64,000 nt of DNA from Anaeromyxobacter oryzae (GTDB lineage: Bacteria > Myxococcota > Myxococcia > Myxococcales > Anaeromyxobacteraceae), in contig NZ_AP025591.1 of the NCBI RefSeq assembly GCF_023169945.1, positions 186,001-250,000 of the forward strand. Reading direction: 5' to 3'. The notes beneath the pieces are model-generated. The model had not been told where the DNA came from. It made no database searches and saw only the letters and a program-made list of their open reading frames with translations. This document shows positions 16,245 to 35,774 of the stretch, one piece after another (position 1 is the first letter of the stretch; the number at the start of each line of letters is the position of its first letter). Made by a program: the position numbers and the translations under genes.

Positions 16245-16297
16245 ATCCGCTAAAACGGACGTTCTGCTTGACGGGAGATCCGTCCGCCATCTAGGAT
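16245..16297 (+). promoter_or_regulatory. Promoter P1 and two operator copies, cysG-sir transcript
   Basis: Operator copy ATCCGCTAAAACGGAC at 16245-16260. A -35 box TTGACG follows at 16268-16273, an 18-base spacer, and -10 TAGGAT at 16292-16297. The -10 lies inside a second copy, GTCCGCCATCTAGGAT (16282-16297). The same 16-base element recurs before four other sulfur transcripts. The rest of the 311-base gap holds a GC-rich imperfect hairpin in the leader (16328-16355) and no gene. Confidence 0.72.
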
Positions 16298-16389
16298 GAA
16301 ATCGTCCTCGCGTCCCGGGCGCTCGCGGGGAGGTCCCGGCGACGCGGGCCCTCCCGGGCTCTCACCGTGCCGCGCGGCACCGGATCGAC

Positions 16390-17730
16390 ATGAGCGAGCC
16401 CCTCCTCCCGCTGTTCGTCAAGCTCTCCGGCCGCGACGTCCTGCTCGTCGGCGGCGGCGCGATGGCGACGGTGCGCGCGCGGCAGCTCGCGGAGGCCGGC
16501 GCGCGCATCACGGTGGTGGCGCCGGAGCTTCGCGACGAGGTCGCCGCGCTCGCGGCGGTCGTGCACCGGCGCGGCTTTGCGCCCGCGGATCTCGACGGCG
16601 CCTGGCTCGCCGTCGCGGCCGCGACCCCGGACGTGAACCGGGCCGTCGCCGAGGCGGCCGAGGCGAGGCGGATCCTCGTGAACGCCGTCGACGATCCGGA
16701 CCACGCCACCGTCTACACCGCGGGCGTCGTGCGCCGCGGGGGGGCCACGGTCGCGGTCTCGACCGGCGGCAAGGCGCCCGCCCTCGCCGGCCTCCTCCGC
16801 GAGGCGCTCGAGGCCGTCCTGCCCGACGACCTCTCCGCCTGGATGGACGCCGCCGAGGCCGCGCGCGCGGAGTGGAAGCGCGCACGGGTGCCGATGGCGA
16901 CGCGCCGCCCGCTCCTCCTCGAGCGGCTGAACGCGCTCTACGCCGGCGGGCGCGGCGCCGCGGCGACCCCGCCGCTCCCCGGCGGCTTCGTCTCCCTCGT
17001 CGGCGCAGGCCCCGGCGATCCCGGCCTCCTCACCCGGCGGGCGGCGGAGCGGCTCGGGCAGGCGGACGTCGTCCTCTACGACGCGCTCGTCGATCCGGCG
17101 GCCCTCGCGCTCGCGCCGCGCGCCCACTGCTTCCACGTCGGGAAGCGCGCGGGGCGCCCCAGCGTCTCGCAGCGTGCGATCGAGCGGCTCCTCGTGCGCG
17201 CCGCCCGCCGCGGCCAGCGCGTCGTGCGGCTGAAGTGCGGAGATCCCTTCGTGCTCGGGCGCGGCGGCGAGGAGGCGCTCGCGCTCGCCGAGGCCGGCGT
17301 GCCCTTCGAGATCGTGCCCGGCGTGACCTCCGCGATCGCCGCGCCCGCCCTCGCCGGCATCCCCGTCACGCACCGCGGGCTCGCGGCGGGCTTTGCCGTC
17401 GTCTCCGGCCACGCCGAGGGCACCTACGGCCCCCTCCTCGACGCCATCGCACCGGCGGCGCTCACGCTGGTGGTCCTCATGGGCGTCGGCGCCCGGGCTG
17501 GCATCGCGGCGCGGCTCCGCGCCCGCGGCTGGGATCCTGCGACGCCCGCCGCCGTCCTCCTCGGCGCGTCGAGCGTCGAGGCCTTCACCTGGACCGGCAC
17601 GCTCGCGGAGCTCGCCACCGCGCCGCTGCCCGGCGACCGCGCCCACCTCCCCGGCACCCTCGTCGTCGGCGCCGTCGCGGCCCTCGCAGCGGTCCGCGAG
17701 CGCCCCCGCGCAGCCGCCGGCGACCGCTGA
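16390..17730 (+). CDS. cysG: Siroheme synthase, fused dehydrogenase/ferrochelatase and methyltransferase
   Basis: 446 aa bifunctional or trifunctional enzyme that makes siroheme, the cofactor of sulfite reductase. Residues 1 to about 155 are the NAD-dependent precorrin-2 dehydrogenase/ferrochelatase (VGGGAMATVRARQLAEAGA; NAVDDPDHATVY). Residues about 200-440 are uroporphyrinogen-III methyltransferase (LVGAGPGDPGLLT, VRLKCGDPFVLGRGGEE, PGVTSAIAAPALAGIPVTHRG). Length matches enterobacterial CysG. It is first in a two-gene transcript with the sulfite reductase 18 bases downstream, an obvious functional pair under promoter P1. Confidence 0.95.
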   Translation: MSEPLLPLFVKLSGRDVLLVGGGAMATVRARQLAEAGARITVVAPELRDEVAALAAVVHRRGFAPADLDGAWLAVAAATPDVNRAVAEAAEARRILVNAVDDPDHATVYTAGVVRRGGATVAVSTGGKAPALAGLLREALEAVLPDDLSAWMDAAEAARAEWKRARVPMATRRPLLLERLNALYAGGRGAAATPPLPGGFVSLVGAGPGDPGLLTRRAAERLGQADVVLYDALVDPAALALAPRAHCFHVGKRAGRPSVSQRAIERLLVRAARRGQRVVRLKCGDPFVLGRGGEEALALAEAGVPFEIVPGVTSAIAAPALAGIPVTHRGLAAGFAVVSGHAEGTYGPLLDAIAPAALTLVVLMGVGARAGIAARLRARGWDPATPAAVLLGASSVEAFTWTGTLAELATAPLPGDRAHLPGTLVVGAVAALAAVRERPRAAAGDR

Positions 17731-17748
17731 GCCCGAAGGACCCCTGCC

Positions 17749-19584
17749 ATGACCACCTCGACCCTCCCCGCCGGCCGCGCCCGCCCCACCTTCGCGGACC
17801 CCTCCGAGATCGACGCCTTCGTCGAGCGGCTCCGCCGCTTCGAGCGCGGCGAGCTCGACGCCGAAGGCTGGCGCGCCTACCGCGTCGCGCGCGGCGCGTA
17901 CTCGCAGCGCCAGGACGGCGTGCACATGCTGCGGGTGAAGATCCCGCAGGGGCTCGCCGACGCGGCGCAGCTCCGGGCGCTCGCCGACGTCGCCGCGCGC
18001 TTCTCGCGCGGGTTCGGCCACGTCACGACGCGGCAGAATCTCCAGCTCCACTTCGTCTGCCCCGCGGACCTCGAGCCGGCGCTCCGCCGGCTCGCGGAGG
18101 CCGGCCTCACCACCGCTGGCGCGGGCGGGAACACCGTCCGGAACGTCGTGACCTGCCCGCTCGCGGGCGTCTCCGCCGACGAGGTCTTCGACCCGACGCC
18201 CTACGCCGAGGCGGCGACGCGCCACTTCCTCCGCCACCCGCTCGCGAACGCGCTGCCGCGGAAGCTCAAGATCGCCTTCGAGGGCTGTGCCACGGACCAC
18301 GTCGCGACGCCCATCCACGACCTCGGGTTCCGCGCCGCCGTCCGCGAGGTCGCCGGCCGGACCATCCGCGGCTTCCGCGTCACCGCCGCGGGCGGCACGT
18401 CCTCGCTCTGCACCTCGGGGCTCGTCCTCGTCGACTTCCTGCCCGCGGCCGACGTGCTCGCGCTCGCCGAGGCGGTCGTCCGCATCTTCCACGCGCGCGG
18501 TGACCGCGTGAACAAGGCCCGGAACCGTCTCAAGTTCCTCGTCCGCGACCTCGGCGAGGCCGCGTTCCGCGAGCTCGTCCAGGCCGAGCTGATCCGCGTG
18601 CAGGCGGAGGGCGCGCCGCGCCTCCCGTTCGACCCGGAGCGCCCGCCCGAGGAGCGCGCTCCCGCCCTCGCGCGGCCGCAGGCGCCCGCGCCCGCCGAGA
18701 TCGCCCGCCGCGTGACCGCCGCGCCGGCGCGCGGGCCCGGGCTCCCGCCCGAGGTCGTGCCACTGCTCGAGGCGCCGCTCGCCGCCCTCGACGCGTTCCG
18801 CCGCACCAACGTCCGCGCGCAGAGGCAGGCGGGGTTCGAGGTGGTGACGGTCGCGGCCCCGCAGGGCGATCTCACCGCCGCGCAGCTGGAGGTCCTCGCG
18901 GACCTCGCCCTCGCGCACGGCGACGGCACGGTCCGCCTCGCGCCGGGCGGCCAGCTCCACCTCCGCTGGGTGCCGCGCGCGGAGGTCCCCGCGCTGTACG
19001 CGGGCCTCGCCGCCGCCGGCCTCGTCCGCGCCGCCGGCACCGCCGACGACATCGTCTCCTGCCCCGGCGCGGAGGCCTGCCGCCTCGCGGTGACCAGCCC
19101 GCGCACTGTCGCGCGATTCGCCGAGCGCCAGCTGCGCGACCGGCTCGGCCGGGACGCGCTCGCCGAGGCGGCGTTCCCGGTCCACGCCTCGGGGTGCCCG
19201 AACGGCTGCAGCCAGCACCACCTCGCGGCGGTCGGCCTCCAGGGCAGCGCGCGCCGGCTCGGCGAGCGCACGATCCCGCAATACTTCGTGCTCGTCGGGG
19301 GGAGCGTCGGCGAGACCGGCGCGACCTTCGGCCGGCTCGCCGCGAAGATCCCGGCGCGGCGCGTGCCGGACGCGCTCGCGCGCCTCGTCGCCCTCTGGCG
19401 GGCCGAGCGCGCGCCGGGCGAGGCGCCGGGCCCGTTCCTCGCCCGCGCCCTCGACCGCGCGAGGGCGGTGCTGGCCCCGCTCGAGGAGCTCGCGCTCGCG
19501 GACGCGCGCGCCGAGGACTTCGTGGAGCCGGGCTCGGACGAGGTCTTCCGGCCCGAGGTCGGCGACGGCGAATGCGCGGCCTGA
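17749..19584 (+). CDS. sir: Sulfite (nitrite/sulfite) reductase hemoprotein, copy 1
   Basis: 611 aa, cytosolic. Reduces sulfite to sulfide with six electrons on a coupled siroheme/[4Fe-4S] centre. The cluster ligands are visible as SCPGAEAC (CX5C) and SGCPNGC (CX3C). Ferredoxin-like half-domains flank siroheme-binding stretches such as [12 protein letters not shown]. No flavin domain is present, so electrons should come from a ferredoxin or a separate subunit. It could reduce nitrite, but pairing with cysG inside a sulfate cluster favours sulfite. A paralogue of nearly the same length lies at 33879-35702. Confidence 0.9.
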   Translation: MTTSTLPAGRARPTFADPSEIDAFVERLRRFERGELDAEGWRAYRVARGAYSQRQDGVHMLRVKIPQGLADAAQLRALADVAARFSRGFGHVTTRQNLQLHFVCPADLEPALRRLAEAGLTTAGAGGNTVRNVVTCPLAGVSADEVFDPTPYAEAATRHFLRHPLANALPRKLKIAFEGCATDHVATPIHDLGFRAAVREVAGRTIRGFRVTAAGGTSSLCTSGLVLVDFLPAADVLALAEAVVRIFHARGDRVNKARNRLKFLVRDLGEAAFRELVQAELIRVQAEGAPRLPFDPERPPEERAPALARPQAPAPAEIARRVTAAPARGPGLPPEVVPLLEAPLAALDAFRRTNVRAQRQAGFEVVTVAAPQGDLTAAQLEVLADLALAHGDGTVRLAPGGQLHLRWVPRAEVPALYAGLAAAGLVRAAGTADDIVSCPGAEACRLAVTSPRTVARFAERQLRDRLGRDALAEAAFPVHASGCPNGCSQHHLAAVGLQGSARRLGERTIPQYFVLVGGSVGETGATFGRLAAKIPARRVPDALARLVALWRAERAPGEAPGPFLARALDRARAVLAPLEELALADARAEDFVEPGSDEVFRPEVGDGECAA

Positions 19585-19600
19585 GCCCGTTCGGGCCGGC

Positions 19601-19664
19601 GTCCGTGATCTCGGATTTTTGTCCGCCCGTCCGCTTGACAGGACGGGTATCCGCTACCTAGGAT
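19601..19664 (+). promoter_or_regulatory. Promoter P2 and two operator copies, thrC-cysO-moeZ-cysK-cysM-mec transcript
   Basis: Operator copy GTCCGTGATCTCGGAT at 19601-19616; -35 TTGACA at 19635-19640; 18-base spacer; -10 TAGGAT at 19659-19664 inside a second copy ATCCGCTACCTAGGAT (19649-19664). The upstream copy begins 17 bases after the sir stop and is followed by a short T-run. Confidence 0.72.
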
Positions 19665-19810
19665 TCGTGCGCTCTCGCCCGGTGGCTCCGGCCGGGAGCG
19701 ACGACGACAGCCCGTGGCGATTTGCGGCGTATTGCGGCCACGTGAATCCAACCGCTAAAAAGCTCCTCGCCTGCGGGTGAATACCCCCGGGCGGGGCGGA
19801 AGGAAGACAG

Positions 19811-21085
19811 ATGTCCTCGCCCGTCGCGGCGGCGTGCACCGCCGTCGCCAAGCGGTCCGGCCCCCGGCTCGCGTCCCTGTCCTGTCGCCTCTGCGGCGCC
19901 CCCTCCGATCCGTCCCCCGTCGCGGTGTGCGAGCACTGCCTCGGCCCGCTCGAGCCCGTGTACGACCCGGCCCGGCGGCTGCCCACGCGCGCCGAGATCG
20001 AGGCGCGCCCCCGCTCGATCTGGCGGTACCGCGAGTGGCTGCCGATCCTCGACGCGCCGGTCGTCTCCGAGGACACCGGCTTCACGCCGCTCCTCGACGC
20101 GCCGGCCCTCGCCCGTGCCCTCGGCGTCCGGCGCGCGCTCGTGAAGAACGACGCCGTCTCGCACCCGAGCTGCTCGTTCAAGGATCGCGTCGTCGCCGTG
20201 GCGCTCAACGCCGCCGTCGGGCTCGGCCTCGACACCGTGGGCTGCGCGTCGACCGGAAACCTGGCGAACTCCGTCGCAGCGCAGGCCGCGCGCGCCGGGC
20301 TCGCCGCCTGGATCTTCGTCCCCGAGGACCTCGAGGTCGGGAAGATCGTCGGCACGGCGATCTACGGCCCGCGGCTGGTCCGGGTGAAGGGGACCTACGA
20401 CGACGTGAACCGCCTCTGCGCGCAGGTCGCGGACCGGTTCGGCTGGGGGCTCGTCAACCTGAACCTCCGCGGCTACTACGGCGAGGGGTCGAAAACGATG
20501 GCCCACGAGATCGGCGAGCAGCTCGGCTGGCGGACCCCCGACGCGGTGATCGCGCCGATGGCGGGCGGCTCGCTCCTGACGAAGCTCGACAAGGGCTTCC
20601 GCGAGCTGCGCACCGCCGGGCTCCTCGACGGCGCCGCGCCGCGGATGTACGGCGCGCAGGCGGCGGGCTGCGCGCCCATCGTGAACCTCGTCGCGAGCGG
20701 CGGCGAGAAGATCGAGCCCGTCCAGCCCCGGACGATCGCGCGCTCCATCGCCATCGGGAACCCCGCGGACGGCCGCTTCGCCGCGAAGGCGATCCGGACC
20801 TCCGGCGGCGGCGCCGCGGCGGTCACGGACGAGGAGCTCGTCGCCGGGATCCGGCTGCTCGCCGAGACGACGGGCGTCTTCGGCGAGACGGCGGCCGGCG
20901 TCACCGTCGCCGCCGCCCTGAAGCTCGCGAGGGAGGGGCAGCTCCGGCCCACGGACGAGCTCGTCCTCTGCATCACCGGCAACGGCCTGAAGACGGTCGA
21001 GGCCGTCCTCCCGGCGCTGCCGGAGGCCCCCGTCGTCGCCGGGAAGCTGCGCGAGGTCGCAGCGCTCGTCGAGGCGTCCCGCTAG
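19811..21085 (+). CDS. thrC: Threonine synthase family PLP enzyme with N-terminal zinc ribbon
   Basis: 424 aa. Threonine synthase converts O-phosphohomoserine to threonine. Seen: four-cysteine zinc-ribbon-like start (C25, C28, C40, C43), PLP lysine in CSFKDR (K124), ASTGNLANS phosphate loop and MAGGSLLTKLDKG. It heads a transcript whose other five genes make cysteine from a protein thiocarboxylate; spacing to cysO is 28 bases. That company raises the possibility that it feeds sulfur into homocysteine instead of, or as well as, making threonine. Sequence alone supports threonine synthase best. Confidence 0.88.
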   Translation: MSSPVAAACTAVAKRSGPRLASLSCRLCGAPSDPSPVAVCEHCLGPLEPVYDPARRLPTRAEIEARPRSIWRYREWLPILDAPVVSEDTGFTPLLDAPALARALGVRRALVKNDAVSHPSCSFKDRVVAVALNAAVGLGLDTVGCASTGNLANSVAAQAARAGLAAWIFVPEDLEVGKIVGTAIYGPRLVRVKGTYDDVNRLCAQVADRFGWGLVNLNLRGYYGEGSKTMAHEIGEQLGWRTPDAVIAPMAGGSLLTKLDKGFRELRTAGLLDGAAPRMYGAQAAGCAPIVNLVASGGEKIEPVQPRTIARSIAIGNPADGRFAAKAIRTSGGGAAAVTDEELVAGIRLLAETTGVFGETAAGVTVAAALKLAREGQLRPTDELVLCITGNGLKTVEAVLPALPEAPVVAGKLREVAALVEASR

Positions 21086-21113
21086 AACCCCGTCACCCTT
21101 CAGGAGCGAAACG

Positions 21114-21389
21114 ATGCCGGTCACCTTGAGGCTCCCCACCGTGCTCGCCAAGTCGGCGGGCGGCCAGACCGTCCACGAGGCGAAGGGCGCCACCGTCGGC
21201 GCGGTCATCCAGGACGTCACGGCGCGCCACCCGGATCTCGGATCGCGGCTCCGTGGCCCCGATGGCAAGCCGTACCCGTACGTGATCTTCTACCTCGACG
21301 ACGAGGACATCCGGTTCCAGCAGGGCTTCGAGACGCCCGTCGCGGACGGCGCCGAGATCGTCGTCGTCCCCGCCATCGCCGGAGGGTAA
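21114..21389 (+). CDS. cysO: CysO-type ubiquitin-fold sulfur carrier
   Basis: 91 aa beta-grasp protein of the ThiS/MoaD/CysO group, ending in the diagnostic Gly-Gly (VVPAIAGG). The terminal carboxylate is adenylated and turned into a thiocarboxylate that donates sulfide to a cysteine synthase. ATG at 21114 follows CAGGAG. The adenylating enzyme follows after three bases and cysM and mec lie downstream, the same partners as in the mycobacterial mec-cysO-cysM system, so CysO is favoured over MoaD. Confidence 0.9.
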   Translation: MPVTLRLPTVLAKSAGGQTVHEAKGATVGAVIQDVTARHPDLGSRLRGPDGKPYPYVIFYLDDEDIRFQQGFETPVADGAEIVVVPAIAGG

Positions 21390-21392
21390 CCG

Positions 21393-22559
21393 ATGTCCAT
21401 CGGGCGTCCCGCCTCGGAGCTCCCGCAGCTCGGCCAGGAGGAGATCCTCCGCTACAGCCGCCACCTCATCATCCCCGACGTCGGGGTCGAGGGGCAGCGC
21501 CGGCTCAAGGCCGCCCGCGTCCTGATGGTCGGCGCGGGCGGGCTCGGCTCGCCCATCGGCCTCTACCTCGCCGCGGCCGGCGTCGGCACCCTCGGCCTGG
21601 TCGAGTTCGACGTCGTCGACGTGACCAACCTGCAGCGCCAGGTGATCCACGGGACGAAGGACGTCGGCCGGAAGAAGGTCGAGTCCGCGCGCGACCGGAT
21701 CCACGACGTGAACCCGCACGTCGAGGTGGTCGCGTACGACACCCAGCTCACGAGCGAGAACGCGCTCGAAATCATCCGGAACTACGACCTCGTGGTGGAC
21801 GGGACGGACAACTTCGCGACCCGCTACCTCGTGAACGACGCCTGCGTCCTCCTCGGGAAGCCGAACGTCTACGGATCCATCTTCCGCTTCGAGGGCCAGT
21901 CCACCGTCTTCTGCACCACGGACGGCCCCTGCTACCGGTGCCTCTACCCCGAGCCTCCGCCGCCGGGCCTCGTCCCCTCCTGCGCGGAGGGCGGCGTGCT
22001 CGGCGTGCTGCCGGGCCTCCTCGGGCTCGTGCAGGCCACCGAGACCGTGAAGCTCATCGTCGGCGCGGGCGAGCCGCTCGTCGGGCGCCTCCTGCTCCTC
22101 GACGCCCTCCGGATGGACTTCCGGACGGTGAAGCTCCGCAAGAACCCGAGCTGCCCGGCGTGCGGCACGCACGAGATCCAGGCGCTCATCGACTACCAGC
22201 AGTTCTGCGGCATCCGCGGCCAGCCGGACGAGACCGACGGCATCCCGACCATCACGCCCGCGGAGCTGGACGCGCGGCGGCGGCGGAAGGACGCGTTCGA
22301 CCTCATCGACGTCCGCGAGCCGCACGAGTGGGACATCGGCCGGATCGAGGGCGCGCGCCTCACCCCGCTCTCCTCGTTCGCGGAGGCGCTGCCGACGCTC
22401 GACAGCGCGCGCGACCTGATCGTCTACTGCAAGAGCGGCGGCCGGAGCGCGAGGGCCGTCCGCCAGCTGCAGGCGGCCGGCTTCCGCCGCGTGTGGAACC
22501 TCGCCGGCGGGATCCTCCGCTGGAGCGAGGAGATCGACCCGACCGTGCCGCGCTACTAG
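21393..22559 (+). CDS. moeZ: MoeZ-type adenylyltransferase/sulfurtransferase
   Basis: 388 aa, an E1-like adenylating domain fused to a C-terminal rhodanese. ATP loop VGAGGLGSP (about residues 47-54), CYRCLYPEPPP and CPAC zinc cysteines, then rhodanese with active-site loop YCKSGGRS (Cys near 346). It activates the CysO C-terminus and loads sulfur. MoeZ of actinobacteria has this architecture and does the same job. It sits between its substrate cysO and cysK, six bases upstream of the latter. Confidence 0.92.
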   Translation: MSIGRPASELPQLGQEEILRYSRHLIIPDVGVEGQRRLKAARVLMVGAGGLGSPIGLYLAAAGVGTLGLVEFDVVDVTNLQRQVIHGTKDVGRKKVESARDRIHDVNPHVEVVAYDTQLTSENALEIIRNYDLVVDGTDNFATRYLVNDACVLLGKPNVYGSIFRFEGQSTVFCTTDGPCYRCLYPEPPPPGLVPSCAEGGVLGVLPGLLGLVQATETVKLIVGAGEPLVGRLLLLDALRMDFRTVKLRKNPSCPACGTHEIQALIDYQQFCGIRGQPDETDGIPTITPAELDARRRRKDAFDLIDVREPHEWDIGRIEGARLTPLSSFAEALPTLDSARDLIVYCKSGGRSARAVRQLQAAGFRRVWNLAGGILRWSEEIDPTVPRY

Positions 22560-22565
22560 CCCGGA

Positions 22566-23531
22566 ATGCCGCCCCGCGACCGCCCGCGCGCCGCCCCGCC
22601 GCTCGAGAGCATCCTCGACGCGGTGGGGGGCACGCCCGTGGTGCGGCTGCGGCGCGTCGTCGTCCCCGAGGGCGCCGCGGTCTTCGCGAAGCTCGAGTCG
22701 TTCAACCCGGGCGGCTCGGTGAAGGATCGGATCGCGATCTCCATGATCGAGGCCGCGGAGCGGTCCGGGCGGCTCCGGCCCGGCGGCCGCGTCGTGGAGG
22801 CGACGAGCGGCAACACCGGCATCGGCCTCGCCCTCGTCTGCGCCGTGAAGGGTTACCGGCTCACCCTCGTCCTGCCCGACTCGACGTCCCTCGAGCACCG
22901 GCAGGCGCTCGAGGCGTACGGCGCCGAGCTCGTGCTCACGCCGGCGGAGAGGGCGATGGGCCCGTCGGTGGCGCGCGCGCGAGAGCTCGCGGAGCGCGAG
23001 GGCGCCTTCCTCGTCGAGCAGTTCGCGAACCCCGCGAACCCCGCCGCGCACCGCGCGCACACCGGCCGCGAGCTGGTCGAGCAGCTCCGGGCCGCCGGCG
23101 TCGCGCCGGACGCGTTCGTCGCCGGCGTCGGCACCGGCGGGACGCTGACCGGCGTCGCGGAGGTGCTCCGCCGGGAGCACCCGCGCGTGGCGCTCGTCGC
23201 CGTGGAGCCGGCCGCGTGCGCCGTGCTCTCCGGCGGCGCGCCGGGCCCGACCCGGATCCAGGGCCTCGGCGCCGGGTTCGTGCCCGAGGTCCTGGACCGG
23301 TCGGCGTACGACCGCGTGATCGCCGTCTCCGACCAGGACGCCTGGGCGATGAAGGTGCGCCTCGCCCGCGAGGAGGGGCTGCTCGTCGGCGTCTCGAGCG
23401 GCGCGGCGGCGGTCGCGGCGCTCGACGTCGCGCGCGCGCTCGGGCCCGGCAAGGTGGTCGCGACCGTGTTCGCCGACACCGGCGAGCGGTACTTCTCGTT
23501 CGCGGAGTGGTTCGAGGGGGCGCGGCCGTGA
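22566..23531 (+). CDS. cysK: Cysteine synthase, CysK-like
   Basis: 321 aa PLP fold-type II enzyme that joins sulfide to O-acetylserine. PLP lysine in GGSVKDR (K53), substrate loop TSGNTGIGLA, phosphate loop GTGTGGTLTG and AWAMKVRLAREEGLLVGVSSGAA follow cysteine synthase closely. Its last four bases overlap the GTG of a second cysteine synthase (GTGA). The two paralogues probably differ in donor, this one using free sulfide. Confidence 0.9.
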   Translation: MPPRDRPRAAPPLESILDAVGGTPVVRLRRVVVPEGAAVFAKLESFNPGGSVKDRIAISMIEAAERSGRLRPGGRVVEATSGNTGIGLALVCAVKGYRLTLVLPDSTSLEHRQALEAYGAELVLTPAERAMGPSVARARELAEREGAFLVEQFANPANPAAHRAHTGRELVEQLRAAGVAPDAFVAGVGTGGTLTGVAEVLRREHPRVALVAVEPAACAVLSGGAPGPTRIQGLGAGFVPEVLDRSAYDRVIAVSDQDAWAMKVRLAREEGLLVGVSSGAAAVAALDVARALGPGKVVATVFADTGERYFSFAEWFEGARP

Positions 23532-24930: not shown

Positions 24931-25010
24931 CGGGCTCGCCCCTCGACTCCGTGGCGCTCCGCGCCGCTCGCTCGGTGCGAATGCTTGCAGGGCAGCGCGA
25001 CCGCCGCAGC

Positions 25011-25061
25011 TTGACGGACGGCCATCCGCTATCTAGGATGCCGTCATCCGTTATGCCGGAT
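25011..25061 (+). promoter_or_regulatory. Promoter P3 and two operator copies, cysDNHTWA transcript
   Basis: -35 TTGACG at 25011-25016, 17-base spacer, -10 TAGGAT at 25034-25039 inside operator copy ATCCGCTATCTAGGAT (25024-25039). A second copy, ATCCGTTATGCCGGAT, lies at 25046-25061 over the likely transcription start. The two copies start 22 bases apart, about two helical turns, which fits cooperative repression. Confidence 0.75.
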
Positions 25062-25111
25062 ACTCATCCACCGGCAGGCGCGAGGCCCGGCGCCCGCGCG
25101 ACGAGGTGAAC

Positions 25112-26026
25112 GTGGCGATCCCGATGCATCAGGCCTTCTCCCACCTCGACTGGCTCGAGGCCGAGGCGATCCACGTGCTCCGGGAGGTGGCCGGGCAGTG
25201 CGCGAATCCGGTGCTGCTCTTCTCCGGCGGCAAGGACTCCATCTGCCTCCTCCGCCTCGCGGAGAAGGCGTTCCGGCCGGCGCGCTTCCCCTTCCCGCTC
25301 ATGCACATCGACACCGGCCACAACTACCCCGAGGTGATCGCGTTCCGCGACCGCCGCGCGGCGGAGCTCGGCGAGCGGCTCCTGGTGCGCTCGGTCGAGG
25401 ACTCCATCCGCGCCGGCAAGGTGGTCCTCGCCCACCCGCTCGAGCCCCGGAACAAGCACCAGTCGGTGACGCTCCTCGACGCGATCGCCGAGTTCGGCTT
25501 CGACGCCTGCATCGGCGGCGCGCGGCGGGACGAGGAGAAGGCGCGGGCCAAGGAGCGGATCTTCTCCTTCCGCGACGAGTTCGGGCAGTGGGACCCGAAG
25601 AACCAGCGCCCCGAGCTGTGGAGCCTCTACAACGCGCGGATCCGGAAGGGCGAGAACATCCGCGCGTTCCCCATCTCCAACTGGACCGAGCTCGACGTGT
25701 GGCAGTACATCGCCCGCGAGCGGCTCGAGCTCCCGTCGATCTACTTCGCGCACCGGCGCCCCGTCGTCCGCCGCGGCGGCGCCATCGTGCCGGTCACCGA
25801 GGTGACGCCGCCCAGGCCCGGCGACGTCGTCGAGGAGCTGACGGTCCGGTTCCGCACGGTCGGCGACATCACCTGCACCGCGCCGGTCGAGTCGGCGGCC
25901 ACCACGCTCGAGGCGATCGTCGCCGAGACGGCGACGACCACGATCACCGAGCGCGGCGCGACCCGCCTCGACGATCAGACCTCGGACGCCTCGATGGAGC
26001 AGCGCAAGAAGGAGGGCTATTTCTAG
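25112..26026 (+). CDS. cysD: Sulfate adenylyltransferase subunit 2
   Basis: 304 aa. With CysN makes APS from sulfate and ATP. PP-loop LFSGGKDS (near residue 36), CIGGARRDEEKARAKERIFS and FPISNWTELDVWQYI are family signatures; the end, MEQRKKEGYF, is typical of CysD. GAGG at 25103-25106 is five bases before GTG 25112, which I take as the start over GTG 25106. The stop TAG abuts the cysN ATG directly. First gene under promoter P3. Confidence 0.94.
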   Translation: MAIPMHQAFSHLDWLEAEAIHVLREVAGQCANPVLLFSGGKDSICLLRLAEKAFRPARFPFPLMHIDTGHNYPEVIAFRDRRAAELGERLLVRSVEDSIRAGKVVLAHPLEPRNKHQSVTLLDAIAEFGFDACIGGARRDEEKARAKERIFSFRDEFGQWDPKNQRPELWSLYNARIRKGENIRAFPISNWTELDVWQYIARERLELPSIYFAHRRPVVRRGGAIVPVTEVTPPRPGDVVEELTVRFRTVGDITCTAPVESAATTLEAIVAETATTTITERGATRLDDQTSDASMEQRKKEGYF

Positions 26027-27304: not shown

Positions 27305-28020
27305 GCGTCGTCGGGAAGGACGCGCTCGCCGCCCTCGCGGCGGACCTCGAGGGGAAGGCGCCCGAGGAGATCCTCGCGGCCGTCGCGCCACGGTTCCCGG
27401 CGGGCCGGATCCAGCTCGCGAACAGCTTCGGCGAGGAGGACTGCGTCCTCGTGGACGTGATCGCGCGCGCGCGGCTGCCGGTCGGCATCTTCACGCTCGA
27501 CACCGGGTACCTGTTCGCCGAGACCTACGCGCTCTGGACGCGGCTCGAGGAGCGCTACGGGGTGTCGATCGAGGCCATCCGGCCGGACGCGCCGCTCGTC
27601 GTCCCGGGCCGCCCGCCGCCGTGGGAGGAGGACCCGGACGCCTGCTGCCACGTCCGGAAGGTGGTGCCGCTCCGGTCCCAGCTCGCGAGGCTCGACGCCT
27701 GGGTGACCGGCATCCGCCGGGATCAGACGCCGGATCGCGCGAGCGCCCGGGTCGTCGAGTGGGACGCCCGGTTCGGGCTGGTGAAGGTGAACCCCCTCGC
27801 CGCCTGGACCGCCGAGCGCGTCCGCGAGCACGTGCGCCGCTTCGAGGTGCCGACGAACCCGCTCCACGCGCAGGGGTACGCCAGCATCGGCTGCGCGCCG
27901 TGCACCTCCCCGGTCGGGCCCGGCGAGGACCCGCGCGCCGGCCGGTGGCGCGGGAAGGAGAAGAAGGAGTGCGGCCTGCACGTGGAGCGGACGCCGGGCG
28001 GGGAGCCGCGCCGGTCGTGA
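27301..28020 (+). CDS. cysH: APS reductase (assimilatory, [4Fe-4S] type)
   Basis: 239 aa. Reduces adenylyl sulfate to sulfite and AMP with thioredoxin. The four iron-sulfur cysteines are present, CC near residues 115-116 and CAPC at about 199-202, plus the catalytic cysteine in KKECGLH near 224. The cluster ligands distinguish APS reductases from PAPS-only CysH, so sulfate is handled as APS without a kinase step. Also seen: ANSFGEEDCVL and FTLDTGYLF nucleotide loops. Confidence 0.93.
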   Translation: MSVVGKDALAALAADLEGKAPEEILAAVAPRFPAGRIQLANSFGEEDCVLVDVIARARLPVGIFTLDTGYLFAETYALWTRLEERYGVSIEAIRPDAPLVVPGRPPPWEEDPDACCHVRKVVPLRSQLARLDAWVTGIRRDQTPDRASARVVEWDARFGLVKVNPLAAWTAERVREHVRRFEVPTNPLHAQGYASIGCAPCTSPVGPGEDPRAGRWRGKEKKECGLHVERTPGGEPRRS

Positions 28021-28856
28021 GCCGCGCCGCGCGCCGCTCCCCGGGCGTCCTGCCCGGCTTCGGGCTCTCGACCGGGTTCACCGTCCTGTACCTGTGCCTG
28101 GTGGTGCTGGTGCCGCTCTCCACGCTGGCGCTCCGCTCGAGCGCCCTCTCCTGGGCCGACGCGCTGCGCATCGTCGCGTCTCCGCGCGCGCTCGCGTCGT
28201 ACCGGCTCAGCTTCGGCGCATCGCTCGCCGCGGCCGCGGTGAACGTCCTCTTCGGCGTGCTCGTCGCCTGGGTGCTCGCGCGCTACCGGTTCCCGGGACG
28301 CTCGCTCGTCGACGCGATCGTCGATCTCCCGTTCGCCCTGCCGACCGCGGTGAGCGGCATCGCCCTGACGGCGGTCTACTCCCGGAACGGCTGGCTCGGA
28401 CGGTGGCTCGAGCCCCTCGGCATCCACGGCGCGTTCTCGCCGCTCGGCGTCACGATCGCGCTCACCTTCATCGGCCTCCCGTTCGTGATCCGGACGGTGC
28501 AGCCGGTGCTCGAGGATCTCGATCCGGAGGTGGAGGAGGCGGCGGCGGTGCTCGGCGCCGGGCGCTGGCAGACGTTCCGGCGGGTGCTGCTGCCCGCCAT
28601 CGTCCCCGCGGCGCTCACCGGGTTCGCCCTCTCCTTCGCCCGCGCGCTCGGCGAGTACGGATCGGTCGTCTTCATCTCCGGCAACATGCCGCTCCGGACG
28701 GAGATCGCGCCGCTCCTCATCATGACCCGGCTCGAGCAGTACGACTACGCGGGCGCGGCGGCCATCGCGATGGTGCTCCTCGCGGCCTCGTTCGTCCTCC
28801 TCCTCGCCATCAACCGCCTCCAGGCCTGGACCCGGACGCGCACGGGGCAGGCGTGA
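28017..28856 (+). CDS. cysT: Sulfate ABC transporter permease CysT
   Basis: 279 aa inner-membrane permease with about six helices; the coupling loop reads [21 protein letters not shown] (EAAxxLG motif). Forms the channel with CysW. Overlaps the end of cysH by GTGA and overlaps cysW the same way, so stoichiometry is probably set by coupled translation. Confidence 0.92.
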
Positions 28857-29824
28857 CCGGCGCACACGACGCGATCGCCTCGCCGCGCACCGCCGGGCTC
28901 GCGCCCGAGGTGGCGCCGCTTCCGGCGCGGACGCTGCCGGCCCGCGCCGCGTCGCCGCGCCCGCGCCCGCGGCGCCCGACCGACGATCCGCCCCTCGTGA
29001 AGGGGGCCCTCGTCGGCCTCGCCCTCGCCTTCCTCGCCGCCTTCGTCCTCGTCCCCGCCGCGGTGGTCGTCCACGAGGCGCTGAAGGACGGGCTCGCGCT
29101 CTGGTGGAAGGCGCTCGCCGACGCCGACGCGCTCGCCGCGATCCGGCTGACGGTCCTCGTCGCCGCCGTCTCCGTCCCGCTGAACGCGGTCTTCGGGCTC
29201 GCCGCGGCGTGGTCGATCACCCGCTTCCGTTACCGCGGCAAGAACCTCCTCGTCACCCTCATCGACCTCCCGTTCGGCGTCTCGCCCGTCATCTCCGGGA
29301 TGGTCACGGTCCTCCTCTTCGGCGCGCACGGCTGGTTCGGCCCCTGGCTCCAGGACCACGGAGTCAAGATCGTGTTCGCGGTGCCGGGGATCGTCCTCGC
29401 GACGGTGTTCGTGACGTTCCCGTTCGTCGCCCGCGAGCTCATCCCCTTCATGGAGGCGCAGGGCGTCGAGGAGGAGGAGGCGGCGCACGTGCTCGGCGCG
29501 AGCGGCTGGCAGATCCTCACGAAGGTCACGCTCCCGAACGTGAAGTGGAGCCTGCTCTACGGCGTCATCCTCTGCAACGCGCGGGCGATGGGCGAGTTCG
29601 GCGCGGTGTCGGTCGTCTCCGGCCACATCCGCGGAGTGACCAACACCATCCCGCTGCACGTCGAGATCCTCTACAACGAGTACGCCTTCCGCGCGTCGTT
29701 CGCGGTCGCGTCGCTCCTGTTCATCCTCGCGCTGGTGACGCTCGTGGCGAAGAAGACGCTCGAGTGGAAGCAGCACCTCGCGCGGCGCGACGCTGCGCGG
29801 CGCGCCAATCCCGGCGCCGCCTAG
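28853..29824 (+). CDS. cysW: Sulfate ABC transporter permease CysW
   Basis: 323 aa. Six-helix permease with coupling loop [19 protein letters not shown]. The GTG start overlapping cysT gives a Pro/Arg/Ala-rich cytoplasmic extension of about 45 residues before the first helix; relatives usually start nearer the helix, so an internal start cannot be excluded. Paired with CysT and CysA. Confidence 0.91.
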
Positions 29825-29832
29825 GAGGTCCC

Positions 29833-30909
29833 ATGTCCATCTCGGTGCGCGGCCTGCGGAAGGCCTTCGACGATCACCCCGTCCTCCACGACGTCTCGCT
29901 CGAGATCCCCGACGGCGAGCTGGTCGCCCTCCTCGGGCCGTCCGGCTGCGGGAAGACCACGCTCCTCCGCATCATCGCCGGCCTCGAGCACCCCGACGCC
30001 GGAGAGGTGCACCACGGGGGCGAGGACGTCTCGGCCCGGAGCGCCCGCGAGCGCAACGTCGGCGTCGTCTTCCAGCACTACGCCCTCTTCCGGCACATGA
30101 CCGTCGCCGAGAACGTCGCGTTCGCCCTGAAGGTGCGGAAGCGCCCGCGGGCCGAGATCACGCCGAGGGTGGACGAGCTCCTCTCGCTCGTCCAGCTCGA
30201 CGGACTGCGGAGCCGGTACCCGCACCAGCTCTCGGGCGGCCAGCGGCAGCGCGTCGCCCTCGCCCGCGCCCTCGCCACCTCCCCGGAGATCCTGCTCCTC
30301 GACGAGCCCTTCGGCGCGCTCGACGCGCGGGTCCGCCAGGAGCTGCGCCGGTGGCTCCGGCGCCTCCACGACGAGCTGCACGTCACGAGCGTCTTCGTGA
30401 CCCACGACCAGGAGGAGGCGTTCGAGGTCTCGGACCGCATCGTCCTCATGAACGCCGGAAGGATCGAGCAGGTCGGCACCCCCGCGCAGGTGTTCGAGGA
30501 GCCGGCGAGCCCGTTCGTGATGCGGTTCCTCGGCGCGGTGAACGTGTTCCAGGGCCACGTCGAGGGCGACCGCGCCTTCGTGAACGAGCTCGAGTTCGCC
30601 GCGCCCGGCGCCGGCCAGCGCACGCGCGCCCACGTGTACGTCCGCCCCCACGAGCTCGACGTCCACCGCGCGCCCGTGCCGGGGAGCTTCGCCGCCCGCA
30701 TCGAGCGGCTCGTGCCGCTCGGGGCGGCCGTGCGCGTCGAGCTCGCCGCGCCGCGCTTCGGCGGAGCGGTGGAGGTCGAGCTCGACTTCAGGAAGAGCGA
30801 GGCGCTCGGACTCGCCCCGGGCGACGCGGTCCACGTCTCGCCCCGCCGGGTCCGGGTGTTCCCGGCGCACGAGCGAGAGCAGGACAGCCTGACCGCCAGC
30901 GGGCTGTGA
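29833..30909 (+). CDS. cysA: Sulfate ABC transporter ATPase
   Basis: 358 aa. Walker [10 protein letters not shown] near residue 36, Q-loop VFQHYALF, signature [15 protein letters not shown] near 133, Walker [13 protein letters not shown] near 153, H-loop FVTHDQEEA, then a C-terminal TOBE-like regulatory domain ([11 protein letters not shown]). AGGAGG precedes the ATG at 29833. Powers sulfate import with CysT, CysW and the binding protein encoded at 32716-33741. Last gene of the P3 transcript. Confidence 0.95.
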
Positions 30910-30941
30910 GCCTCCTGGCGGGCCGGCGCGGGCGCGCGCCG

Positions 30942-30960
30942 CGTGACCATTCCGGTCACG
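30942..30960. other. Small inverted repeat after cysA
   Basis: CGTGACC and GGTCACG form a 7-bp stem around ATTCC, starting 33 bases past the cysA stop, followed by an 8-bp palindrome GAACGTTC at 30970-30977. It could end the cysA transcript or control the small gene at 31100. There is no U-run, and the 16-bp sulfur operator is absent from this 190-base gap. Confidence 0.4.
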
Positions 30961-31099
30961 TGTGATGCGGAACGTTCTGGCGATTCCGGCGTCGATCACG
31001 CAGAAGCGCAGCCGAACGCGATCCCGCCGCCGTCCGCGCCCGGGCACGCCGCCTGCACTCCGAATGCGTGTCCACCTCGCACCCCAGGAGATCCAAAAT

Positions 31100-31366
31100 A
31101 TGATCCGTCGCCTCGTCGTCGTCGCCGCCGTCGCCCTCTCCGCCAGCTCCGCACTCGCGCTCACGCCCAGCTCGACCGACGAGGCCCGCGCCGTCGCCCG
31201 TCCCGCGGTCGTCAGTGGCGCCGACGAAGCCTCGCCGGCGATCGTCAGCAGCACGGACGAGGCGCGGGCGATCGCCAAGGCGGCTCCCCTCGTCTCCGCG
31301 CCGCGCCTCGCCTCGGCCCCGTCGAGCACCGACGAGGCGCGCGGCATCGCGCCCATCGGCGGATAG
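31100..31366 (+). CDS. Exported 88-aa repeat protein without sulfur amino acids
   Basis: Signal peptide MIRRLVVVAAVALSASSALA, then a mature part of about 67 residues with three copies of SSTDEAR followed by A/G, V/I, A (near residues 24, 51 and 77) joined by Ala/Pro/Val-rich spacers. AGGAG lies nine bases before ATG 31100. There is no cysteine and no methionine after the initiator, no aromatic residue, and one lysine. It stands between cysA and the convergent porin in the sulfate cluster. Family and function are unknown; an envelope protein made during sulfur limitation is my inference. Confidence 0.68.
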   Translation: MIRRLVVVAAVALSASSALALTPSSTDEARAVARPAVVSGADEASPAIVSSTDEARAIAKAAPLVSAPRLASAPSSTDEARGIAPIGG

Positions 31367-31394
31367 GCCGGGCCGGCAGGGCCGGAGACGACGA

Positions 31395-31425
31395 GGCCCC
31401 GGCGTCCGCGCAGGACGCCGGGGCC
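31395..31425. terminator. Strong hairpin between convergent genes
   Basis: GGCCCCGGCGTCC pairs perfectly with GGACGCCGGGGCC around loop GCGCA, a 13-bp stem, 28 bases past the small exported protein and 24 bases before the end of the porin gene. It probably terminates both transcripts. Confidence 0.7.
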
Positions 31426-31449
31426 ACCTCGCTGCGGTCCCCTCCCCCT

Positions 31450-32682
31450 TTAGAAGATCACCTGCCCGAACACGATGGCCTTGTCGCCCGTCCGCACCGC
31501 CTTCTCCGAACGGTCCGCCTCGTAGTTGAAGATGAGGCGCGCGTTCAGCGGCACGGCGTCGACGTAGGCGCCGATCGTGTACCGCTCGTTCGTGTCGCCC
31601 GCCACGTTCCGGTTCCGGTCGTAGCGCTCGGCGCGGAAGATGGGCCCGAGGTTCCACGGGGTCTTTCCGTAGACGCCGGCGTACCAGCCGCGCGCGGTGA
31701 ACGCGCTCGCCGTCGAGCTCGTCGCGCTCGTGTAGGTGCGGACGTCGCGCTCCGACTGGATCCACTCGGCCGCGGCGAAGAAGATGGGCGTGTCCACCTC
31801 CACGTCGGCGCCGTACGTCTTGAACCAGAAGTACGTATCGTCGACGGGCGTCCCCACGCCGTCGAACTTGCCGTTGGCGCCGAGGCCGGCGACCTGCCGG
31901 CCGTAGCCGAACGAGCCGCCCGCGCGGACGCCGACCCGTCCGCCCTTGATCAGCACCCCCGCCCGTCCCCACGCGTTCTTCGTGTCGAGGTCGTCCGTCC
32001 GGTTCGGGCCGGCGCCGTTCACGAGCGAGCCGGCCAGCTCCGCCCCGATCGCGCCGGCGGTCCACTTCCCGAGCAGCCCGACCCCGAGGTCGCGGCTGTC
32101 CGGCGTCGCGTTGACGCTCGTCGTGGACGTGGAGCGCGCGAGCGCCTGGACGACGTAGGAGCTGTTCACCCAGAGCAGCTTGGTGTCGCTCTCGGGCTGC
32201 TCGTACCCGAACGGCGTCTTCCACTGGCCGAGGCGGAGCTCGAGCCCGCGGACCGGCTTCAGCGCGGCGTACGCGTCCTTGAGGGACGTGTCGGCGCCGT
32301 CGAAGAGGACGGCGTAGCCGACGTTCGGCGTCACGTCGCCGCGCGCCCCGATGCGGGCGCGCCGCAGCTGGAACGTCGAGCTGACCACGCCCGGCGCTGG
32401 CGGATCGGTCCTGGCGTACTGCACGTTCACGAAGCCCCAGAACGTCGGCGCGTACGGCGCGGCCGCGGTCGGCTTCGGCGGCGCGTCGGCCGCGGGCGGT
32501 GAGGGCGGCCGCGGCGGCTGCCCCTGCGGCGCCGAGGCGGGCGGCGCCGCGGGCTCGGCAGGCGCGACCGGCTCCGGGGAGGATGCGGGGGCGTCCGGCG
32601 CGGCCTTCGGGCCCTCCTGGGCGCCGGCGCGAGAGGACACGAGGAGCGCGACCGCGAGCGCGGCCTGGAAGATGCGGTTCAT
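31450..32682 (-). CDS. OprO/OprP-type anion porin, likely for sulfate
   Basis: 410 aa outer-membrane beta-barrel. Signal peptide MNRIFQAALAVALLVSSRAGAQ, a Pro/Ala-rich linker, then a barrel with FQLRRARIGARGDVTPNVGY, GLELRLGQWKTPFGYEQ and a C-terminal Phe (GQVIF), as in phosphate/pyrophosphate-selective porins. It follows sbp after 33 bases on the same strand, so it probably lets sulfate into the periplasm. It contains no cysteine and no methionine beyond the initiator. Confidence 0.86.
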   Translation of the reverse strand: MNRIFQAALAVALLVSSRAGAQEGPKAAPDAPASSPEPVAPAEPAAPPASAPQGQPPRPPSPPAADAPPKPTAAAPYAPTFWGFVNVQYARTDPPAPGVVSSTFQLRRARIGARGDVTPNVGYAVLFDGADTSLKDAYAALKPVRGLELRLGQWKTPFGYEQPESDTKLLWVNSSYVVQALARSTSTTSVNATPDSRDLGVGLLGKWTAGAIGAELAGSLVNGAGPNRTDDLDTKNAWGRAGVLIKGGRVGVRAGGSFGYGRQVAGLGANGKFDGVGTPVDDTYFWFKTYGADVEVDTPIFFAAAEWIQSERDVRTYTSATSSTASAFTARGWYAGVYGKTPWNLGPIFRAERYDRNRNVAGDTNERYTIGAYVDAVPLNARLIFNYEADRSEKAVRTGDKAIVFGQVIF

Positions 32683-32715
32683 GGTGTGGTCTCTCCGGTG
32701 AGGGGGCGGCCTGCG

Positions 32716-33741
32716 CTACGCGCCGGGGACGTAGATCTGATCGAACACGCCGCCGTCGGCGAAGTGCGTCGCCTGCGCCTTCTGCCACCCGCCGAACACG
32801 CCGTCGACGGTCACGAGGTCGATCTTCGGGAACTTCGCCGAGTACCTCGCCGCGACCTTCGGATCGCGCGGCCGGTAGTAGTTCTTCGCCGCGAGCTCCT
32901 GCCCCTCGGGCCCGTAGAGGAACTCGAGGTAGGCCTGCGCGACGGCGCGGGTGCCGTGCCGCTCCACGTTCCGGTCCACCACCGCGACCGGCGGCTCGGC
33001 GAGGATGCTCGTCCGCGGCACGACGATCTCGAATTGCCCCTTCCCGAGCTGCTCCACCGCCAGGAACGCCTCGTTCTCCCACGCGAGGAGGACGTCGCCG
33101 ATGCCGCGCTCGACGAAGGTCGTCGTCGAGCCGCGCGCGCCGGAGTCGAGGACGGGCACGTTGCGGTAGAGCGCCTTCACGAACTCCCTCGCGCTCGCCT
33201 CGCTGCCGCCGCTCTTCCGGAGCGCGTGCGCCCACGCCGCGAGGTAGTTCCAGCGCGCGCCGCCGGAGGTCTTCGGGTTCGGCGTGATGACCGACACGCC
33301 CGGCTTCACGAGGTCGTCCCAGTCGCGGAGGCCCTTGGGGTTGCCCTTCCGGACCAGGAACACGATGGTCGAGGTGTACGGCGAGGCGTTCTGCGGCAGC
33401 CGCTTCTGCCAGTCCGCCGGGAGGAGGCCCGCCCTCGCCACCGCGTCCACGTCGTACGCGAGCGCGAGCGTCACCACGTCCGCCTCGAGCCCGTCCACGA
33501 CCGCGCGCGCCTGCTTCCCGGAGCCGCCGTGCGACTGCTTCACCGTGACCTTCTGGCCGGTCCTCGCCAGCCACTGCTTCCCGAACGCGGCGTTCACCGC
33601 CTCGTACAGCTCGCGGGTGGGGTCGTACGAGACGTTGAGGAGCTGCACCTCCTTCGCGTCCGCCGCCCGCGCCGCGCGACCTCCGACGAGCGCGACCAGC
33701 GCCGCCGCGATCCCGACCCAGCTTCCGATCCGTGCCTTCAT
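32716..33741 (-). CDS. sbp: Periplasmic sulfate-binding protein
   Basis: 341 aa. Signal peptide ending [11 protein letters not shown]. The mature protein begins [22 protein letters not shown] and contains [33 protein letters not shown] and VLLAWENEA, hallmarks of Sbp/CysP. ATG at 33741 is placed six bases after GGAGG; the ATG at 33747 touches the GGAGG and is unlikely. No cysteine and no methionine occur after the initiator. Delivers sulfate to CysTWA; co-transcribed with the porin under P4. Confidence 0.93.
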
Positions 33742-33777
33742 GTCCATCCTCCGCGTCATGCGCCCGTCGGGCGCGTC

Positions 33778-33827
33778 ATCCGTTATTACGGATGGACAAC
33801 CTAGATGACGGACGGACCTCCAGTCAA
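33778..33827 (-). promoter_or_regulatory. Promoter P4 and two operator copies, sbp-porin transcript
   Basis: On the minus strand: -35 TTGACT (33822-33827), 18-base spacer, -10 TAGGTT (33798-33803) inside operator copy GTCCGTCATCTAGGTT (33798-33813). A second copy, a near-perfect palindrome ATCCGTAATAACGGAT, lies at 33778-33793 just downstream, start to start 20 bases. This is the best-formed site of the set. Confidence 0.77.
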
Positions 33828-33878
33828 GCGGATGCCCGGCTACTCGCCGGCAGCCGCGGCGAGGCGGCGCCGAGGAGG

Positions 33879-35702
33879 CTACGTGGCGCACTCGCCGTCG
33901 CCGCTCTCGGGCCGGAACGCGGCGGCGTCGCCGAGATCCACGAGGTCCTCCGGCCGGAGCGCGTCCGGCGCGAGCTCCGCGAGATCCGCGAGCACGGCGC
34001 GCGCCCGGGCCGGATCGACCCGCGCGAAGAACGCCGGCGCGCTCTCGCCGACGGCGCGGTCCGCGGCGTACAACGCGACGAGCCGGTCGAGCGCCTCCGG
34101 GACACGCCGCGCGGGGATCTTCGCGGCGAGCCGGCCGAAGCGGGCGCCGTCCGGGCCGACCGCGCCGCCGAGCAGCACGAAGTACTGCGGGATCGCCCGC
34201 CCGTCGACCTTGCGCGCGCTGCCCTGGAACCCGATGGCGGCGACGTGGTGCTGGCCGCAACCGTTCGGGCAGCCGCTCACCTTGAGGTCGAGCTCCGGGA
34301 GCGCCAGCTCCGGGTGCGCGCGGACGTGCTCCTCGAGCAGTCGCCCGAGGCCGCGCGACTGCGTGACGGCGAGCTTGCAGCTCTCCGCGCCAGGGCAGCT
34401 CGTCACCCGCGCGGCGGTGCCCGCCCCCGCGCGCCCGAGGCCCGCGGCGGCGAGCCGCGCGTGGAGCGCCCCCACCTCCTCGCGCCGGACCCAGCGAAGC
34501 ACCACGTCCTGCTCCCGGGTGAAGCGGACCGTTCCGTCGCCGTACGCGCGCGAGAGGTCGGCGAGGACGGAGAGCTGCGCCGCCGTCACGTCGCCGAGCG
34601 GGAGCACGACCTCGACCACGACCCAGCCCGCCTGGCGCTGGGGCCGGACGTTGGTCCGCTCGAACGCGGCCCGCAGCGCGGCGGCCGGCGCGAGGTCCGG
34701 CTCGACAGCCGGCACGAGGCCGGGCCCACGCGGCGCCTGGGCCCGGACGCGCGCGGCGATCGCCTCCGGCCCGGGCGCGGCGGGCCGGGTGCCCTCCGGC
34801 GCGAGCTCCTCGGGCGGCGAGGCGACGTCGAAGGACAGGCGCGGCGCGCCGTCCGCGCGGACGCGGGAACGCTCGGCTTCGACCTCGGCGCGGAAGCCCT
34901 CGAACCCGAGCTTCCGGATGAGGAACTTCATCCGGTTGGCGTGGCGGTGGACGCGATCGCCGAGCCGGTGGAACACCCGGATGACCGCCTCGGACAGCTC
35001 GAGCACGTCCTCCGCGGGCAGGAAGTCGACGAGGAGCTGCGCCGCGACCGGCACGGTCGCGGTGCCGCCGCCGGCACGGACCAGGAACCCGCGGCGGCCG
35101 TCCGGCGCGGTGCGCGCGAAGAAGCCCAGGTCGTGGATGGCGCAGGCGGCGTGGTCGTCCGGGCAGCCCTCGAACGCGACCTTGAACTTCCGCGGGAGCG
35201 TGCTCGAGAGCGGGTGGCGGAGGAAGTGGCGCGTGAACGCCTCGGCGTACGGCGTCACGTCGAAGGCCTCGCGCGCGGAGACGCCGGCCAGCGGGCACGC
35301 CGTGACGTTCCGGACCGAGTTCCCGCAGGCCTCCCTCGTCGTGATGCCGGCGTCCACGAGCCGGCGCATCGCCGCCTCGGCGCCGCGCGCCGCGACGAAG
35401 TGGAGCTGCAGGTTCTGCCGGGTGGTGACGTGGCCGAAGCCACGCCCGTGCTCCACGGCGACCTCCGCCAGCGCCTCGAGCTGCGCCGCGGACAGGACGC
35501 CCTGCGGGATCTTCACCCGCTGCATGTGGACGTCCCCCGGCTGCCGCTGGCCGTAGGTGCCGAGGAGGAGCCGGTACTGCCGCCAGGCCTCGGCGGTCAC
35601 CTCTCCGCGCTCGAACCGCGCGAGCATCTCGAGGAAGTCGTCCAGGTCACGCGCGTCCGCGAACGGCGCGCGCTCCCGGGACGAGGGGGCGAGCGTGGGC
35701 AC
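33879..35702 (-). CDS. sir: Sulfite (nitrite/sulfite) reductase hemoprotein, copy 2
   Basis: 607 aa from GTG 35702, chosen because GGAGG lies five bases before it; GTG 35714 would add four residues without a ribosome site. Cluster ligands SCPGAESC and SGCPNGC are intact, as is [12 protein letters not shown]. It is clearly paralogous to the reductase at 17749-19584 and collinear along its length. It is transcribed alone, divergent from the usp gene's upstream side, under P5. Sulfite and nitrite roles cannot be separated by eye; presence of the sulfur operator favours sulfite. Confidence 0.9.
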
Positions 35703-35742
35703 CGGTTCCTCCACCGCGGCGCGCGGCCCCCTCGAGCCGGTC

Positions 35743-35774
35743 GTCCGCTATAGTGGATGTCCGGTATAACAGAC
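35743..35774 (-). promoter_or_regulatory. Tandem operator copies before the second sulfite reductase (P5)
   Basis: Two abutting copies read on the minus strand: GTCTGTTATACCGGAC (35759-35774) and ATCCACTATAGCGGAC (35743-35758). The TATACC or TATAGC cores could be the -10; no TTGAC-like -35 is seen, unlike the other four promoters. The two copies are each one mismatch off the symmetric consensus. Confidence 0.6.

Follow-up and report, generated by a model that had tools for sequence, protein, structure and literature searches.

The stretch of Anaeromyxobacter oryzae DNA considered here (the window; 64,000 nucleotides, positions 186001-250000 of a single 6.72 Mb contig, or ca. 1% of the genome) contained ten copies of a 16-bp candidate operator, arranged as five pairs before the sulfur genes cysG, thrC, cysD, sbp, and sir2 (Table 1). 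A first-pass annotation had placed ten such 16-mers before five sulfur transcripts, and all of them were recovered at their positions. Relative to the consensus, RTCCGYTATNNCGGAY, with mismatches counted on the better strand, two copies were exact, five had one mismatch, two had two, and one, which covered the sbp -10 element, had three. The copies of a pair were offset by 37 (cysG), 48 (thrC), 22 (cysD), 20 (sbp), or 16 (sir2) bases, which agreed with the 16-48 bases reported earlier. The thrC gene headed a series encoding a ThiS-family carrier, a MoeB/MoeZ-type E1, and a cysteine synthase, with a JAB-domain gene ca. 0.9 kb further on; the protein encoded by sbp may have a role with sulfate. 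The evidence presented below makes it likely that the operator is bound by a repressor of the XRE-cupin class, which would govern the genes for cysteine and methionine both here and in related genomes.

Table 1. Operator copies, associated genes, and riboswitch, in window coordinates.
Feature	Position	Strand	Details
Operator copy, upstream one before cysG-sir1	16245..16260	+	ATCCGCTAAAACGGAC; 1 mismatch
Operator copy, second before cysG	16282..16297	+	3' end is -10 TAGGAT; -35 TTGACG at 16268-16273, spacer 18
cysG (siroheme synthase)	16390..17730	+	NCBIfam domain models above cut-off
sir1 (nitrite/sulfite reductase family)	17749..19584	+	Domain models
Operator copy before thrC	19601..19616	+	GTCCGTGATCTCGGAT
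Operator copy over thrC -10	19649..19664	+	-10 TAGGAT; -35 TTGACA at 19635-19640, spacer 18
SAM-II (SAM_alpha, RF00521) riboswitch, between thrC promoter and thrC	19704..19779	+	Rfam 39.3 bits, gathering 36
thrC (threonine synthase family)	19811..21085	+	Heads gene series
Operator copy over cysD -10	25024..25039	+	-10 TAGGAT; -35 TTGACG at 25011-25016, spacer 17
Operator copy, downstream one before cysD	25046..25061	+	ATCCGTTATGCCGGAT
cysD, then cysN and cysH	25106..26026	+	Domain models
sbp (extracellular solute-binding protein, SBP_bac_11)	32716..33741	-	Domain match
Operator copy before sbp	33778..33793	-	ATCCGTAATAACGGAT on sbp strand
Operator copy over sbp -10	33798..33813	-	-10 TAGGTT, 3 mismatches; -35 TTGACT upstream, spacer 18
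sir2	33879..35714	-	NIR_SIR domains
Operator copy before sir2	35743..35758	-	ATCCACTATAGCGGAC
Operator copy before sir2	35759..35774	-	GTCTGTTATACCGGAC

The position of the copies relative to the promoters was consistent. At cysG, thrC, cysD, and sbp, as well as at yeiH and metY elsewhere on the chromosome, the -10 element formed the 3' end of one copy and lay 17-18 bases from the TTGAC of the -35 element. The earlier description of four promoters with a TTGAC -35 and a copy over TAGGAT held in full for cysG, thrC, and cysD; sbp had the same arrangement, with TAGGTT as its -10. At metK and at the candidate regulator gene XRE-B (see below), a copy filled the spacer and ran into GATAAG or GATATT, and at cysK a copy sat directly downstream of the -10. 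TTGAC was absent from the upstream regions inspected at the sir2 and DUF4395 promoters. Because copies cover or abut the -10, this geometry suggests a repressor that would occlude RNA polymerase, as the first-pass annotation had proposed. An XRE-cupin protein acting here as an activator or dual regulator is unlikely. Escherichia coli sutR, which encodes a protein of this class, is annotated as a dual regulator, and the other copy of the pair is found upstream of the -35 at both cysG and thrC; however, the copies that contain the -10 at six promoters, and those that fill the spacer at metK and XRE-B, do not favor activation, and XRE-cupin proteins of Pseudomonas are described as repressors (PMC7901475).

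Genome counts were made as strand-hits, with the reversed pattern as control. For TCCGNNATNNCGGA there were 26 strand-hits versus 4 for the control, and for the consensus there were 17 versus 5 at up to one mismatch and 141 versus 47 at up to two. The sites with at most one mismatch to the consensus numbered 12, seven of them within the window. Of the other five, two were upstream of metK, one was upstream of cysK, and one was upstream of a DUF4395 gene; the fifth fell within an open reading frame (ORF) that appeared histidine kinase-like by eye. This distribution favored the first-pass reading, against which an equal frequency before unrelated genes would have counted. Exact matches to the promoter form, RTCCGNNANCTAGGWT, numbered six genome-wide (four in the window, plus yeiH-sir3 and metY), all before sulfur genes. 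Operator sites outside the window thus precede metK, cysK, metY, and yeiH-sir3, and the transcripts with sites number at least nine chromosome-wide; sites with two mismatches were taken from among the matches listed, to 3.44 Mb, and weaker targets beyond may be missed. One operator serving one sulfur regulon, as first proposed, is supported by the distribution of these sequences. That the repeats are instead extended promoter elements recognized by a sigma factor is very improbable. In favor of this reading, TTGAC and TAGGAT do recur with one copy of most pairs, and one ORF in the window gave a weak ECF sigma match. Against it, each pair has a second copy placed outside the -10, exact dyads are also found where they have no promoter function, and the exact promoter-form matches are confined to sulfur genes.

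The operator also recurred before orthologous sulfur genes in relatives. A site was present within 120 nt of cysD in 10 of 12 orthologues of the family; in the other two genomes (G010 and G015), cysD closely follows a co-oriented metY that itself has sites. None of eight cysD genes of other families had a site, seven of them from genomes lacking a close XRE-cupin homologue (G024, G026, G030, and G038) and one from G033, which has one. For metY, a site with at most two mismatches was found within 350 nt in 17 of 23 best copies of the family (G011 marginal) and also in G033, and no site preceded metY of G026 or G038. Four relatives (G002, G007, G010, and G018) together had 34 distinct sites with no more than one mismatch, of which 17 lay within 400 nt upstream of an orthologue from our reference set, at distances of 5 to 361 nt; 15 of these genes were sulfur genes or homologues, one was an XRE gene, and one a DUF4395 gene. 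By our own estimate, in which such genes account for ca. 12 kb of upstream sequence in a genome of 5 Mb, chance would place about 0.1 sites there. Behind a site in G010, Pfam identified a lipoprotein of the NlpA type, which often binds methionine, and behind one in G011 it identified an ABC ATPase that carries a NIL domain.

No regulator gene had been noticed in the window, and none linked to sulfur was present among the part of the window's ORFs given to Pfam; the regulator-type ORFs in that scan were a receiver-only response regulator, a histidine kinase, and the weak ECF sigma match. The last, at 38349-39836 on the minus strand, matched Sigma70_ECF with 29.6 bits against a cut-off of 21.1 and may not be a real gene. 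Elsewhere on the chromosome, two XRE-cupin paralogues, 65% identical to each other, were found: XRE-B (G000:C1:3358782-3359447, ca. 3.36 Mb) and XRE-A (G000:C1:4090451-4091095, 4.09 Mb). The architecture is that of one short protein with HTH_3 at residues 45-97 and Cupin_2 at 146-214, both above gathering. Upstream of XRE-B, a site with two mismatches follows TTGACA, and a 56-codon ORF that overlaps the XRE-cupin frame comes next. The recognition region, VSRAML(G/S)Q(I/V)ELG(Q/R)S, was present in 27 of 29 sequences, among them the two paralogues; it differs in G030, where the gap upstream of the XRE-cupin gene is without TCCG-N6-CGGA. By eye, that gap, between cysK and the XRE-cupin gene (L145:1430-1490), contains a TTCAC-GATC-GTGAA dyad, possibly a shifted operator of that lineage. 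In the cupin domain, H159, E165, and H199 were invariant in all 29 sequences, SutR included, and this invariance suggests a metal site.

Homologues of the XRE-cupin gene carried the same dyad upstream. An exact TCCG-N6-CGGA occurred at most 180 nt upstream in 24 of 27 homologues (in one, L143, inside coding sequence), compared with a mean of 0.35 and a maximum of 2 of 27 in 40 dinucleotide shuffles, and the 16-mer occurred with at most two mismatches in 16 of 27. Two homologues stand outside this set: that of G018a has a two-mismatch site upstream, and the match in G034 begins at a contig end. Most sites in the upstream regions shown lay directly after TTGAC. In the family, 23 of 24 genomes had a close homologue (E<=1e-50), as did 75 of the 195 in the phylum sample. 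Beyond the family, the orthologue was preceded by a doubled site, with copies 23-25 bp apart, in four g38 genomes (L278, L280, L287, and L293), in G112 (L268), and in G033 (L215); of further f4 loci, five had one site and seven had none. In G112, a DUF4395 gene stands behind the XRE-cupin gene, and DUF4395 genes carry sites in A. oryzae and G018. In G016 (L219:2494-3528), a radical SAM/SPASM gene is divergent to the XRE-cupin gene, and by eye the same gene end lies upstream in many genomes of the family.

In three relatives, the XRE-cupin gene was linked to sulfur genes. In G018 it lies inside a metY-XRE-thrC-ThiS-moeZ-cysH cluster that continues with cysG, sir, sbp, and ABC permease homologues, and its product is placed as the sister of XRE-B (support 93/87; bootstrap not settled). 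In G030 and G194, XRE-cupin proteins 44-47% identical to XRE-B are encoded divergently to cysK.

The same operator and regulon could belong to a regulator of another family, such as TetR (like McbR), ArsR (like SahR or SamR), or GntR, with the XRE-cupin genes as mere targets. SahR is an ArsR-family protein. These known regulators have motifs different from the one described here. McbR governs cysteine and methionine genes in Corynebacterium, and SamR of Proteobacteria covers genes of methionine and S-adenosylmethionine (SAM) including metK (PMC4239095); in that text 'myxococc' does not occur. Genus g25, which has the motif without a close XRE-cupin homologue, also speaks for such a regulator, and our scan of transcription factor families covered Rrf2 alone. 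The Rrf2 family, which the first-pass annotation had suggested, was rejected as a candidate: among 23 Rrf2-like loci in five genomes (17 above the family cut-off), with ca. 3 kb searched per locus, none had a site with at most two mismatches, and the evidence favors the XRE-cupin class instead. We consider a regulator of another family rather unlikely, as XRE-cupin was the only repeated transcription factor among the identified genes downstream of sites (G010, G016, and G033; several downstream genes were unassigned), and as three relatives have its gene in linkage with cysK or with metY and thrC.

Counts across genomes, made at up to one mismatch against the reversed control, extended the comparison to other genera. 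The 24 genomes of the family had 243 hits versus 24, or 226 versus 19 in the 23 other than A. oryzae. In 46 other genomes of the order or class with an XRE-cupin homologue there were 462 versus 157, and in 77 without one there were 478 versus 238, divided between genus g25 (16 genomes; 220 versus 41) and the remaining 61 (258 versus 197). Within genus g38, the excess was higher in the seven genomes with XRE-cupin than in the 20 without it (Mann-Whitney p=0.0008, uncorrected for relatedness). Genome G189, of another family, had 266 strand-hits versus 9, perhaps from a dispersed palindromic repeat.

Within the window alone, matches with up to three mismatches showed no excess (30 versus a shuffle mean of 26.9, with 34 of 100 shuffles reaching 30), and this count was uninformative; the case for the operator rests on good matches and their positions. 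Several observations weigh against control of this operator by an XRE-cupin repressor. The promoter form at up to one mismatch was not above control genome-wide (11 versus 9). The site of XRE-B itself has two mismatches and is separated from the regulator frame by the 56-codon ORF, and that of XRE-A has three mismatches. XRE proteins commonly have autoregulatory palindromes (PMC12565409); without the sulfur sites, those upstream of the XRE-cupin genes would therefore show little by themselves. In the four relatives examined for orthologues, the other 17 of 34 sites were not before a reference-set gene, and in the family no site preceded six of 23 best metY copies or two second copies. The cysD genes of other families are only 48-63% identical, hence weak controls, and G033 has the regulator without a site before its cysD (49% identical). 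TCCG-N6-CGGA was not found at seven of the f4 loci read (L266, L267, L284, and L288-L291). Genus g25 (G081-G096) shows its excess with no XRE-cupin match at E<=1e-50. In genera g24 and g45, every genome has XRE-cupin but the excess is small (21 versus 15 and 30 versus 19), and G013 has 1 versus 1. The g38 genomes with XRE-cupin also tend to be larger, though their control counts are not higher.

In the mechanism we propose, an XRE-cupin dimer would bind over the promoter spacer and the -10 element and block RNA polymerase; each copy in the window has a partner that starts 16-48 bp from it. A sulfur metabolite in the cupin pocket, perhaps held by a metal, would decide binding. Physical binding, repression over activation, the ligand, and which of the two paralogues acts are steps that we infer.

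XRE-cupin proteins are already known, and one of them, E. coli SutR (YdcN), is named for sulfur utilization, a role that the title of a 2015 paper reportedly assigns to it. SutR shares the N-terminal HTH_3-type and C-terminal cupin domains and the invariant H/E/H residues with our candidate, and 60 of 182 aligned residues are identical (33%). However, it is distant, with a very long branch in the tree and another gene neighborhood; a palindromic motif has been reported for it (PMC8464067). The Pseudomonas regulators PauR, PsdR, and ErfA have the same architecture, palindromic sites, repression, and a cupin taken as sensor, but they are described as local and highly specialized (PMC7901475), whereas here at least nine transcripts carry sites. 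The best sequence match to the candidate in the PDB (E 5.8e-22) was the Vibrio cholerae HTH_3 regulator 1Y9Q, with D-methionine bound (PMC7901475) and zinc listed (PMC2684688). In the literature searched, which was limited to papers open without subscription, no description of this motif or regulon was found, and the operator, the wide regulon, and the recurrence in relatives appear to be new in those sources. If true, the proposal would provide an XRE-cupin protein with a chromosome-wide regulon instead of local targets, and it puts forward a regulator, an operator, and a set of targets that can be tested for the control of cysteine and methionine in this group, for which the literature searched listed none.

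A second layer of control may act on the thrC operon. The SAM-II riboswitch match in its leader is full-length (positions 1-79 of 79), with the GAUUUG and CGCUAAA of the family consensus present, and it would tie the operon to the SAM level too. Because this riboswitch precedes the thrC series, a methionine or homocysteine role of thrC, ThiS, MoeB/MoeZ, and cysteine synthase is suggested. No other riboswitch exceeded gathering near sites in 11 loci, where a single tRNA was the only match. More tentatively, and with rather less confidence than we would need to assert it, these elements may belong to a global myxobacterial sulfur regulator of the XRE-cupin class that uses TCCG-N6-CGGA in several families, with a cupin that binds a metal-held amino acid related to methionine or cysteine. 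On the transcript of thrC, ThiS, moeZ, and cysteine synthase, which would be a sulfur route based on a carrier protein, this regulator would then be layered with the riboswitch, so that one operon reads both SAM and the cupin ligand.

The window CysD was up to 85% identical to betaproteobacterial copies, among the matches listed (80 loci, mostly Betaproteobacteria by title), and 48-63% identical to copies in other families of the order. The higher identity to the betaproteobacterial copies suggests that cysD was transferred into the family.

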